Shown here one piece after another: positions 15,728 through 25,866 of a DNA stretch of 64,000 nt. The notes under the pieces were generated by a model that was given only the letters and a program-made list of their open reading frames with translations, had not been told where the DNA came from and ran no database searches. The position numbers were made by a program, and so were the translations under genes. The stretch spans positions 62,001-126,000 of the forward strand of contig CALJEI010000006.1 of NCBI GenBank assembly GCA_938074605.1. Direction: 5' to 3'. Source of the stretch: an uncultured Ignisphaera sp. (lineage in GTDB: Archaea > Thermoproteota > Thermoprotei_A > Sulfolobales > Ignisphaeraceae). Positions within the stretch are counted from its first letter, which is position 1. Each line of letters begins with the position of its first letter.

Positions 15728-16987
15728 CTAATTATTAGTTATAAGTACTTGGATACCGTTTAATCTTGTTAGTAAGAGTTGTAACGAAGCCTGGCAAGGG
15801 CTTGGAAACTATTTTTGTCTAGTGATAGGTTTGTAGATCAATATAAATTGTTTTAATAACTATGGGATTATACTTTAATTATGTTGAGAAGTAGTGTATA
15901 AATTTTAAACTTATTATATCTATTGATGACCATTATACTTAAGAAGTTCTTGGCTAAAAGAAGCCTACAAAAAACTAGGGGTTAGCTATACACACCCACG
16001 AGACTAATTAAAAAAGTTATTATTCTTATAATATTTTTAAGGAAAATCTATAGACTCTATCTAAATCTAATCTTTAGAGCCCTAAGTGATAATAGATGTT
16101 TTGCTCCAAGTCATTTAAGACTCAACTCACTCATAGATGGAAGCTTTATGCTGGTAGACTTTGACAGTTACCCATAAGGTTCTCTAATTCACTATTTTGG
16201 TTATGGGATATTCAGCTACGTTGACTTTACGTGTTCCCGTCATGCTTTACATAGTCTTTCTTGGGATCAATTTTTGCTGAGTTAATGTATTTCGGTTTTG
16301 TTATCGGATTTTTGCAACTTTAGGACTGACTGTAGGTGCAAAGGTCGCAACTCATGTTATGTGAAGTGATCGGCACTTTTTACTTTTTAAGAGGAGGATA
16401 TCGTTTCTAAAAGTCTTATCCATCATAGCTTTTTCGTTCTAGCCTAGCGTAACGAAAGTTTATGCTAGGCCTTTCTTTTTTCATGGAAGGACCTTCGCTT
16501 TGAAACAAGAGTAGTTAAAATGTTTTTCAGTGATGGATAAGGGGATCAAGATGTATTGATATTTACTTCAATGGCTTCGTTTTCTTTTCAAAGGTAAGCA
16601 ATGAAGTTGCTTTTTAGACGAAACTACTAGGAAAATATACCTTGGCCATAATTTGCTTCTCTCTTCATTTATGTTTGACCAAAAAGCCCCAGTTAGAAGG
16701 CTGAAAATGCTTAGCTGCATGTTTGAATATTTTTCATATTCTCATGGCTTATTACAAGCTTCAAAGGATTTTGGGCTTTTATTAACCTATCCTATTTTCA
16801 CATTATGTGTAAACACTTAAGTACTACCTAACATACCTAAGGGATCTGCTGCATGTTAAAAGCATGTAGCTGTGGATATCTGAGGTAGAGGTCTTAGATT
16901 TTTAGGGAATTCGATTCTTATGTTAATTTATAATGAAATGAATTAAGATTAACCATCTACACGGTGTAGTAGATAGCTACTATAAGA
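15728..16987. other. 1.26-kb decayed region, left part of the accessory island
   Basis: No intact gene. Reverse-strand translations show protein-like stretches broken by stops and frameshifts. One lies around 16150-16400 (for example TGTRKVNVAEYPITKIVN and, after a stop, RTLWVTVKVYQHKASIYE). Another lies around 16560-16790 (including MQLSIFSLLTGAFWSN and onward for about 50 codons). They look like eroded genes, possibly of a mobile element, but I could not name a family. A 7-bp stem-loop lies at 16442-16470. Confidence 0.6.
16442..16470. repeat. Stem-loop (GCCTAGC/GCTAGGC) followed by T-rich stretch
   Basis: Perfect 7-bp inverted repeat, arms 16442-16448 and 16464-16470, loop 15 nt, followed on the plus strand by CTTTCTTTTTT. 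It could be a relic transcription terminator or a mobile-element end inside decayed DNA. Confidence 0.45.
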
Positions 16988-17266
16988 TCACAACAATAGT
17001 TCAGCTAAAATCCCTAGTATTTGATCTTTTCCTTCCACCTTTTTGAATACAGCTTTTCCGGTTCTGTAGAGACGAATAGAAAGACCATTGTAAGTTAGAT
17101 CGAAAATTATTCCAGCAATACTTCTTTCAACCTTTGCCTTTTTAAGTATTTTTGTTATGGTTTCATCTTTTTTTCTGGGTTTGAAGTTAACTATGATGTT
17201 CTTTTCCTCGCCGCACGCTACCTCTATTCCTGCTATATATTCCTCTAGACTTGAATTTGCAATCAT
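16988..17266 (-). CDS. Small protein related to the ThiF-like C-terminal domain (92 aa)
   Basis: 92 residues, no family name recognised. Its ATG overlaps the sufS stop by four bases (17263-17266), so it is translationally coupled to the cysteine desulfurase. Its second half (about 45-90: AGIIFDLTYNGLSIRLYRTGKAVFKK...) has the same pattern as the last ~55 residues of the E1-like protein encoded upstream (AIVFECCDGVEISLFKNGRVLLKN...). Both share hydrophobic-x-Gly-x-x-Ile-x-Leu-x-x-x-Gly spacing. The shared fold and operon suggest a sulfur-transfer accessory role; that is inference. Confidence 0.7.
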   Translation of the reverse strand: MIANSSLEEYIAGIEVACGEEKNIIVNFKPRKKDETITKILKKAKVERSIAGIIFDLTYNGLSIRLYRTGKAVFKKVEGKDQILGILAELLL

Positions 17267-20045: not shown

Positions 20046-21419
20046 ATATCATCTACCTTGTTTGATATTATTGTTTATCTACACTATATAAAGTTACAGG
20101 ATGTAACTCTGTTATTTATTGTGGATGTAGGTATTCATTTACATCAAAGATATAAATCTTAACGCTTAGAACGGGGAGATAAGGACGTAGTTTCTATTAT
20201 CATAAAAATACGTTCTTCTAGCAATTAGAGCATTAATAGTGAAAGAGCTTAGTAAAAATACAACGATACACAAGATTAACACATTCACAAAACGAAGTTA
20301 ACTTCGACAATAGTAATTCAGTATTTAAAGGAAAGATGAATTGCCTCTCAAGGAGATATTATATCTGAAGAAATTATAAAAAGATTTCAATGCTTACAGA
20401 AAGCTTGTTAAGAAATGCTCTAAACAGAAGGAGCCATAGAATAGTTATGTGAAGATGCATGTTATAATCAAGTCCTAAGAAATCTTCTCATAAACTGCGC
20501 AGGAAAGAGCTACAGTCTTAAAAGAATGTAAGTGCGTTATATGCAGGCGCTCCTTAAAACAAAGGCTTTAATTTTAGCATTAATTCTTATAGTTGTCAGT
20601 ACCTTTACATTTAATTTTTGTTGATAAGATGCTTAAAATAAAGAATCTTAGTAATATAGACAAAATGCTGAACGCAATTGAAATGAAGGAAATGAGAAAC
20701 CTATTGTGCATATAGTAAAGACTCCATGTAGATATTAGCTTGCTGCTAAAATGACGCCTCCTCAGAACTGGTAATTTATTTTGTTACTACCCTTATTTAC
20801 TTTAACGAGTTGTCGCTATTTTCCAGCATACATCATTGATTATAGTAACTGTATTTCTCACGACGGAAGTTACTATTTCCTTACTACCAACTTCGCGACC
20901 AATTATTATGGGTTAATCCAAGTGAGCATAGTCAACTTCCACAGCATTAAGATTAAAAAGCCTTTTGTTATTGCCTTAAACTCCATAAGGGTTTATACTA
21001 GTGTCGTAAGATTTAGTTATTCTTTATTTATGTATTGTTTAGAGCTGCTCGATAAGGGTTAGAGAACTTATTGAAACTTTTAAATGAAGGCTCCTAAGGG
21101 TAGTGATAAGTATTTAATTATCGTTAAGAAAGTATATCAGAAAGAACCACTGTGGATTTTGGTTTTAGGTTAAAGGAGGAACTTGCCATCTCTAACTTCT
21201 TCATGAGATTCTCAAATATTACCCCATTAGTCACAGACCAGTTGAACTCCTCTTTACTCCACACAGCTTTAAGCATATAGTATCATTTAGGTGTGTAGCT
21301 ATACGTGAATCAAGTCCGTTACAATGTCTCTTGTCAATAGGCCTTGACTCTCTATTTTGCATTTCGAGATATGGAAGGCTGCTATCTTGCTACTCGTTAG
21401 CTGAAAAATTTGCGCCTTC
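20046..21419. other. 1.37-kb decayed region of the island
   Basis: No intact gene. A plus-strand signal-peptide-like remnant of 27 codons stands at 20541-20624 (MQALLKTKALILALILIVV...). Around 20310-20520 plus-strand fragments separated by stops read like a small helical regulator. On the minus strand 21124-21276 is a 50-codon open piece (MLKAVWSKEEFNWSVTNG...). It follows in a shifted frame from the decayed tract downstream of the iscU-like pseudogene. A 93-codon plus-strand frame at 20781-21062 has no recognisable features and I do not call it. Confidence 0.6.
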
Positions 21420-21759
21420 TTAGATAGAATTTCCATGAATTTCTCTTCTTCTAGCAAGCTCTTGTGGAAGCCGGTCTAATTCGGGTTTATCTGCGTAATA
21501 AGCTCTTATAGCTTTTTAAACACTTCAACATTGAGTACTGCAATGATACTTAATTGACGGCAAGCGCTGAGCTCCTCAGAGTACTTCTTTCCATAAGATC
21601 TTCCACGCATCTGACAGACTTCTCCCCTTTATCATCTCAGTTAATATGCTTACCACAGTAAACATTACTGTGGTAAGCATATTTCTTAAACTTGACATCG
21701 GTAATCTTATCGCTTACCTCATCGATCCTCAGATGCATTGTTATTATATCTCCTATTGT
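21420..21759 (-). pseudogene. IscU/NifU-type Fe-S scaffold pseudogene
   Basis: Reading the minus strand from 21759 gives GDIITMHLRIDEVSDKI, then TDVKFKKYA, the family pattern after the first scaffold cysteine (there the Cys of CGD is Ile). After an in-frame stop comes KGEKSVRCVEDLME, matching the TE-KGKS region. A shift to another frame gives LPSIKYHCS (21537-21554 within it), the conserved third-cysteine motif, followed by broken KAIRAYYADKPELDRL. Spacing between the motifs (about 67 codons) equals that in intact IscU. At least two stops plus a frameshift make it non-functional. It is downstream in the same orientation-group as sufS and likely once belonged to the same sulfur cluster. Confidence 0.75.
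21643..21683. repeat. Perfect 41-bp palindrome (19-bp arms, 3-nt loop)
   Basis: Left arm 21643-21661 and right arm 21665-21683 are exact reverse complements, with ACA between. It lies inside the iscU-like pseudogene, in the stretch that should encode the second scaffold cysteine region. It may come from template switching during replication of a decaying gene, or may be a protein-binding site. Confidence 0.9.
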
Positions 21760-22713
21760 CTATTCTCAGCACACTCACTATACAATTGACAAACTGTTTG
21801 TAATCTCCAATATCTTCTAGAGTCATTATCTTCACTTTGAGGTGATGTACTTCAGGTAATAAAGTTGCAGTTCCATTGTTGTTGCTTTTGACTCTATTTA
21901 AGGAGACCTACACCTCTTTTATGCTTTCAGTTACATTTTAATCAAGCTAATTTTTGAAGAGGAGGTTGTAGGTTCTACACCATGGAGGCCCACGACAAAC
22001 GAGTAGAACGATATAAACATGCTTCAGATAAACAAAATAAACTATCTGGATAATACATTTAATAGAAAGCCTGTGAGGAGTTGACTCTAGCGACTTGGAT
22101 TTTTATATCCAATGGTCCTCACGATACTCAAGGGTACAGAGGACTATATAGTATCTTATCTAACCACAAAGGTAAGCCAAAAGTCTACCCTTGCCATGAA
22201 TTAAACATTCTTTTATACTCATTCATTCAGAGCACCAAAGATGTTATAAATCACACATGAATAAGGTTAGTCCGGAACGCACATTTCCAATAAGAAACAG
22301 CTTTAACGAAACTCAAAACTAATTAATTCCAAAATAGTTAAAGTAAAAGGAATAAAAGACAAAAGGCAGTTCAAACACCTAAAGACTTAAATATATAAGC
22401 ATCACAAATTTAATAATAAAGCAAATTTATTGACAAACTAATGTAATGCTGAAATCCCACCTCATGCTAATCTACCTAAAATCTGTACACTATATCGCCT
22501 CTAGTTATATACATGATACGCATTGGTAAGGAATAAAGCAGGAAATTATTTATGTATTAATTGCATTATTAACGATAGTAAATTTTAATAACTGTTAAGA
22601 CAAGAATATATTCCTCATTTATATCTTACTGCTACACATAGATAATGTGATGATTATCTTTAACGTTTTTAAGCATGGTTTTTATTAACTTATATAGAAG
22701 GTGCTAATAGATC
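21760..22713. other. 0.95-kb degenerate right part of the island
   Basis: No intact gene. The minus strand around 21770-21890 still reads without stops for about 45 codons (GTATLLPEVHHLKVK, IMTLEDIGDYKQFV and onward) in a frame shifted relative to the iscU-like pseudogene; its family is unknown to me. The rest is AT-rich. A 10-base copy of the tRNA-Leu T-arm lies at 22452-22461. The following plus-strand membrane-protein gene starts at 22714. Confidence 0.55.
22452..22472 (+). repeat. Possible att remnant: partial copy of tRNA-Leu 3' end
   Basis: AAATCCCACC (22452-22461) is identical to tRNA-Leu bases 15711-15720 in the same orientation. In both places it is followed, after a few differing bases, by GC and TAAT. 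This is what a decayed attachment-site duplication could look like. The exact match is short, so chance is possible. Confidence 0.35.
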
Positions 22714-24363: not shown

Positions 24364-25866
24364 ATGAAGACCATAAAAAACATAGCTGCAATAGTTGTAG
24401 TGGTAATGGTACTACTATCACTATCTCCAATAGTAGTACCATTAATGGTGGTACACTATGTAGTTGCACAAAATGACGGAAATAGTGTTAATGTTAATAA
24501 GAGTAGTGAGATAGAGGTTAGAGTTCAAGTATTGGTGCTAATGCTTAATAATACTTTAACGCTAAATATCTCTGATGAGCTTAAACATGAGATTGAGAAT
24601 CTACTTGCTGTGAATATTAGCAGTCTTTCTCTAGATGAACTTAGGGAGTGGATTCGAAATGCATCTAGTTTACTATCTAGAGTTGCTAGTGAAATTAGAG
24701 AGAATAGGATGCATAAAATTGGTATTGTTCTTGAGAGATATCTAAACGGTCTTAGAATAGCCTTAGAGAATAGATTTAGAGTATGTGTAAGACTATATAA
24801 TGTTAGTATTGATATTGATGAGATTGTAGCCAATGCAACACAGGCTAGAGATGTAAATCAGCTCTTTAAGATGTATAGAGGTATTGCTAAAGAGGTTGAG
24901 GTTAAGAAGGCTGGGAGATTTGCGGAGGCTATAAGAAAACATATAAATGCTACTATAAATACTATAGTTGGTGGTGAGGTTAGGGGGCTAGATAGAGTTG
25001 CTGAGAATCTAAATAAACCTCTCCACGCACTAAATAAAACTATAGAGAAACTTAAAGCTATGAATGTTTCAGAGAGTGTTATAGAGACCCTTGAAGAGGC
25101 TAGAGGACATATAAGACTAGCTAGGGAATTAATCATAAGTGTATCTAAAGAAGTCAAGTCAATAGAACAGGAGCGTATTAAAGAGCAAGAGCGTATTAGG
25201 GATATGGTAAACAGATCTCTTAAAATGCTTATAGAGAAGGCCAATAATCGAATCAATGAGATTCTAGAAGAGCTAAACCAGCTTAGAGATAAGGCTCTTA
25301 GTGCAAATCTAACAGTTATTGTTGTAAAAATAGACAATTTAACTACATATGTTGAGGAGATTAGAGGTAGGCTTCTAGAAATAACCACAGTAAAAGACAT
25401 TAATATTATTTTAAATGAGTTGGCAAGGATAGAAAGAGTTATAGAAGCAATTGAACAAGAGGTAAATAAAGCCCTAAATGCTATGGGCCAAAATCTTGGT
25501 GAAAGAGTTAAAGATCTTGCTAATAAAGCTATTGAAGAAGCGGAAGAAATTCTAGAGAAAGTTAAAGAAATGCTTAACGAAACAAAAAATACAATAAACA
25601 ATATTGTTTGTATAGCCATATATCCACCTCCACCAATATGTATAGCTATTAGAAATGCTGAAAAGCTTCTACCACTCATAGAGAAGAAGGTAAATGAAGC
25701 TGAAATTCTAATCAGCAAAGCTAAAGAGCTTTATGCAGCAGGTAGATATATGGAAGCCTTAGCCTATGCATCAAGAGCTCTAGGGATGCTAAAGTCAGCT
25801 GAGCATCAGCTTAATGAAATTCAGAATATACTTAAAGCTTTACAAGAAAGAGGTCCTAGGAGATAG
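24364..25866 (+). CDS. Secreted long coiled-coil protein
   Basis: 500 residues. A signal peptide (about 5-36, ending VVAQ) leads to an almost wholly helical protein of heptad-like repeats rich in Glu, Lys, Asn and Ile, with many N-glycosylation sequons in the first half. A short PPPP break (about residue 420) precedes a C-terminal helical hairpin (about 430-495) that resembles a tetratricopeptide-type pair (AKELYAAGRYMEALAYAS). No membrane anchor is present at the C-terminus. It is probably an exported structural or surface-layer-associated protein. A 41-base hairpin lies in the signal-peptide codons. Confidence 0.8.
   Translation: MKTIKNIAAIVVVVMVLLSLSPIVVPLMVVHYVVAQNDGNSVNVNKSSEIEVRVQVLVLMLNNTLTLNISDELKHEIENLLAVNISSLSLDELREWIRNASSLLSRVASEIRENRMHKIGIVLERYLNGLRIALENRFRVCVRLYNVSIDIDEIVANATQARDVNQLFKMYRGIAKEVEVKKAGRFAEAIRKHINATINTIVGGEVRGLDRVAENLNKPLHALNKTIEKLKAMNVSESVIETLEEARGHIRLARELIISVSKEVKSIEQERIKEQERIRDMVNRSLKMLIEKANNRINEILEELNQLRDKALSANLTVIVVKIDNLTTYVEEIRGRLLEITTVKDINIILNELARIERVIEAIEQEVNKALNAMGQNLGERVKDLANKAIEEAEEILEKVKEMLNETKNTINNIVCIAIYPPPPICIAIRNAEKLLPLIEKKVNEAEILISKAKELYAAGRYMEALAYASRALGMLKSAEHQLNEIQNILKALQERGPRR
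24404..24444. repeat. Inverted repeat inside signal-peptide coding region
   Basis: Arms 24404-24418 and 24430-24444 are perfect 15-bp complements with an 11-nt loop, 40 bases after the start codon. In mRNA this would form a stable stem-loop (TAATGGTACTACTAT with its complement). It encodes LLSLSPIVVPL without disrupting the hydrophobic core. Confidence 0.85.

Follow-up and report, generated by a model that had tools for sequence, protein, structure and literature searches.

A perfect palindrome in an archaeal iscU pseudogene, very probably derived from a coding quasi-palindrome by template switching

Quasi-palindrome mutations perfect palindromes by using one arm as the template for the other (PMC6357072, citing Ripley, 1982), and in yeast protein-coding genes template switches homogenise the arms of inverted repeats (Abraham and Hazkani-Covo, 2021, PMC8604942). 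Here we describe a 41-bp palindrome in an archaeal iscU pseudogene that resembles both. As in the quasi-palindrome mutations (Ripley, 1982) and in the Escherichia coli thyA hotspot and lacZ QP reporters of the Lovett group (PMC6357072), an imperfect repeat appears to have been improved from one template arm, with a frameshift at a bulge. In contrast to those systems, the archaeal case is natural and historical, lies in a pseudogene and extends over ~19 bp, and the event is read from the sequence. It shares with the yeast cases clustered multi-base changes that point to copying of one inverted-repeat arm in coding DNA. The yeast events, however, were inferred between strains with reconstructed ancestors (PMC8604942), whereas here the ancestor is represented only by distant intact homologues, and the gene is no longer functional.

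The palindrome and its host pseudogene

Direct reading of the window (the whole 64,000-nucleotide stretch of DNA analyzed) confirmed a perfect palindrome at 21643-21683, as a sequence-only reading had described it, with exact 19-bp arms of 100% complementarity around an ACA spacer. On the window strand it reads AATATGCTTACCACAGTAA-ACA-TTACTGTGGTAAGCATATT, and the following features are used below:

21399..21765 (approximate limits), minus strand: iscU-like (NifU_N) pseudogene, from tblastn pieces and blastn against intact homologues
21643..21661, minus strand: template arm, inherited iscU code; AATATGCTTACCACAGTAA on the window strand, TTACTGTGGTAAGCATATT on the minus strand, codons A-A-A-S-I
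21662..21664, no strand: spacer ACA, the loop of the hairpin, from direct reading and DNA hairpin prediction
21665..21683, minus strand: rewritten arm; TTACTGTGGTAAGCATATT on the window strand, AATATGCTTACCACAGTAA on the minus strand, where intact genes have TATGG(N)TG-TGC(N)GCAA (Y-G-C-A-A)

Among sampled, non-tiling stretches totalling ~462 kb of the 1.63 Mb genome (GC 35%), the palindrome ranked first among perfect inverted repeats with spacers up to 20 nt, and the runner-up had arms of 15. Arms never exceeded 12 in six copies of the window simulated with an order-2 Markov model. The quality of the palindrome is thus far beyond chance.

This runner-up inverted repeat, at 24404-24444 on the plus strand, has an 11-nt spacer between its 15-bp arms and falls within signal-peptide-like codons of a 500-aa ORF (24364-25866). 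The corresponding region of the homologue in one relative (G008) is not perfectly palindromic. This repeat, located 2.7 kb from the 41-bp palindrome, is possibly another template-switch product.

The source genome (17 contigs), which its ribosomal protein and further genes mark as archaeal, carries an intact IscU on another contig, C7 (NifU_N, E 3e-43). Used as a tblastn query, this protein recovered the minus-strand NifU_N/IscU pseudogene in three pieces, in differing frames and with internal stops, which bears out its earlier description as a pseudogene. Several frameshifts and stops are present. The context of the first cysteine has changed from ACGD to TIGD, and that of the second scaffold cysteine from YGCAANI to YAYHSNV.

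The adjoining minus-strand ORFs encode a class V aminotransferase (SufS-like) and a ThiF-family protein. These genes are flanked, in an otherwise gene-dense window, by two long segments (20046-22713 and 15729-17262) that lack ORFs of 100 aa and probably represent a decaying cluster. The relatives yielded no syntenic counterpart of the pseudogene, and in G008 the neighbouring genes are arranged differently. On C7, the intact iscU is preceded by a class V aminotransferase gene and a small ORF that we read as DsrE-like from its sequence, and the same order is found in the homologous loci L061 and L059. IscU proteins that share 79-90% identity with the C7 copy are present in L054, L055, L058, L059 and L061, from MAGs labelled Sulfolobales, Bathyarchaeota and Nezhaarchaeota, while those of genus members are only 60-70% identical to it; this pattern suggests that the IscU cluster was transferred horizontally, or that there was misbinning.

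Comparison with intact homologues

The approximate minus-strand consensus of the intact genes and the minus strand of the pseudogene read as follows:

Intact: TTT GAR AGY TAT GGN TGY GCN GCA AAY ATA GCT GCN GCA AGC ATA TTA ACT
Pseudogene: TTT AAG AAA TAT GCT TAC CAC AGT AAT GTT T ACT GTG GTA AGC ATA TTA ACT

The arm at 21643-21661 is identical to the intact C7 copy at 14/19 positions, and the alignment runs on downstream at 30/40. The inner tract of the other arm has an ungapped identity of 3/13 to the C7 copy, against 8/13 for the inherited arm. On account of these alignments, the arm at 21643-21661 is taken as inherited and that at 21665-21683 as rewritten. Aligned with gaps to the closest intact genes, the rewritten arm has lost the second scaffold Cys codon and moves the frame by +1; the palindrome region is 1 nt longer than in every intact gene aligned. 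The sequence-only reading had the palindrome as a whole replace the codons around the second scaffold cysteine. That description holds for 21665-21683 but not for 21643-21661, which retains the inherited AAASI code.

When the comparison was limited to the genome's own copy and genus members, 11-13 nt seemed to have been replaced by unrelated sequence. We dropped this view because the closer homologues L061, L059 and L058 show that the replaced arm was a quasi-palindromic partner. The quasi-palindromic origin thus emerged from the comparison with the nearest intact iscU genes that had been proposed earlier; the nearest by DNA is L061, with ~70% identity over 397 bp.

In intact archaeal homologues, the codons for YGCAANIAAASIL form a quasi-palindrome in the register of the pseudogene, with a one-base bulge. 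Across 55 distinct intact homologues, this imperfect inverted repeat paired on average at 10.4/18 positions in the palindrome register and at 4.4 over twelve shifted registers, with one bulged base allowed and its position set from the alignment of the pseudogene. Registers shifted by 3 gave 7.2 and 8.4 of 18, an effect of the repeated Ala codons (GCN). In L061, the arms are GTTATGGTTG-TGCCGCAA and AAAATGCTTGCTGCAGCTA (the second given as its reverse complement). The additional base of the pseudogene sits at the ancestral bulge and fills it.

The direction of the changes was read against four intact proxies for the ancestor, which are distant homologues (the nearest ~70% identical) and not close orthologs of the pseudogene before the event. 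Most single-arm changes (counted as 6-7, or as 5-7 by proxy with the bulge included) lie in the rewritten arm only and lead toward the ancestral base of the other arm, while 1-2 changes go in the opposite direction; the arms have thus become more complementary, with one arm as the template. Another 3-4 positions changed alike in both arms, as expected if these changes were born in the template arm and then copied.

Alternative origins of the palindrome

The sequence-only reading had also considered an inserted regulatory or recombination site, and had proposed a search for further copies. This search found none: with up to 3 mismatches, an arm matched elsewhere in the genome only at one 17/19 and one 16/19 site, neither with an adjacent partner arm. 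The 17/19 match (contig C1, 5336-5354), considered as a second copy, falls where a gene for an unrelated multi-pass membrane protein (MAYTVVSIS...) begins and was taken as chance. The palindrome was present in none of 98 relatives, two of which matched one 17-base arm core at a single site, with one mismatch. Nor was the palindrome found in GTDB contigs, an arm in IMG/VR, or the palindrome region in phage or plasmid records, all of them collections that may omit the source genome and its nearest kin. Neither recurrence at other loci nor conservation near genes, which would mark a mobile or regulatory site, was therefore observed, and the lack of another copy makes a mobile, regulatory or recombination site unlikely. 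Perfect dyad symmetry and strong folding of the single-stranded DNA (z = -7.6, with a predicted hairpin and 3-nt loop) would suit an operator, a terminator, a resolvase or integrase site, or a miniature element inserted into the pseudogene. The net change, however, is just +1 nt, so that the tract replaces sequence instead of adding to it; one arm is inherited iscU code, and ~1.0 and ~1.6 kb separate the palindrome from the closest ORFs of 100 aa or more. We consider such an insertion very unlikely.

Chance decay of the two arms into perfect complementarity would have started from an ancestor already ~60% paired, in a pseudogene that has diverged. Even with the insertion granted, however, the probability that the arms reach 19 pairs by decaying independently is 4e-11 to 1.1e-8, in agreement with the earlier remark that such a palindrome is not expected from random decay, and the changes are strongly one-sided; this origin is close to negligible. 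A chimera of assembly or amplification would be conceivable in a genome assembled in 17 contigs, but the iscU homology is colinear on both flanks, the tract lies exactly on the ancestral quasi-palindrome, and typical chimeras switch strand without returning, all of which renders it highly improbable. Stepwise template-switch corrections, continuing arm conversion or selection for the hairpin constitute a variant that overlaps with the best explanation and deserves more weight than these others, although we regard it as rather unlikely. The 19/19 complementarity of the arms despite ~30% divergence of the gene would fit such a history, as would the 3-4 positions alike in both arms and one position apparently corrected in the opposite direction. 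A single recent switch nevertheless accounts for nearly all of this more simply, and no known RNA or gene was seen at the palindrome, the Rfam scan of the window returning only tRNAs.

Proposed origin by template switching

The palindrome is very probably an iscU coding quasi-palindrome that template switching in the course of DNA synthesis made perfect, one of the two origins put forward by the sequence-only reading and the one favoured by the shared register, the one-base bulge of the intact homologues and the extra base that fills it. The starting point would have been an imperfect inverted repeat, with a single base bulged out, made up of the Tyr-Gly-Cys-Ala-Ala codons and the Ala-Ala-Ala-Ser-Ile codons that come next. 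In the pseudogene lineage, a stalled nascent strand would have been extended on the arm now at 21643-21661, either by folding back or by crossing strands, before it regained its correct template at the AATATG/CATATT end that is shared. The segment at 21665-21683 would thereby have been written as an exact complement, with the bulge filled (a +1 frameshift), mismatches corrected and the Cys codon erased.

As judged from the sequence, this would have been a polymerase event on either strand, perhaps a single one, occurring after or together with the loss of the gene. The matching private changes of the two arms suggest that the template arm was already diverging when the switch occurred, and their full complementarity suggests that it was recent relative to the decay of the gene. 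The palindrome is probably without present function.

Every feature tested agrees with a known mutation class, of which the palindrome is a fresh example in an archaeal pseudogene, and it provides a clear natural archaeal footprint of template switching whose register, bulge and direction are legible from intact homologues. More speculatively, and with considerable doubt on our part, the conserved YGCAANIAAAS motif of iscU/nifU might, via its Ala and Cys codons, build a quasi-palindrome with a one-base bulge in archaea generally and so act as an intrinsic hotspot where template switching eliminates the second scaffold cysteine and alters the frame. If the quasi-palindrome is such a hotspot, iscU would be a ready-made template-switching reporter for archaea; otherwise, the palindrome would be a curiosity of gene decay.
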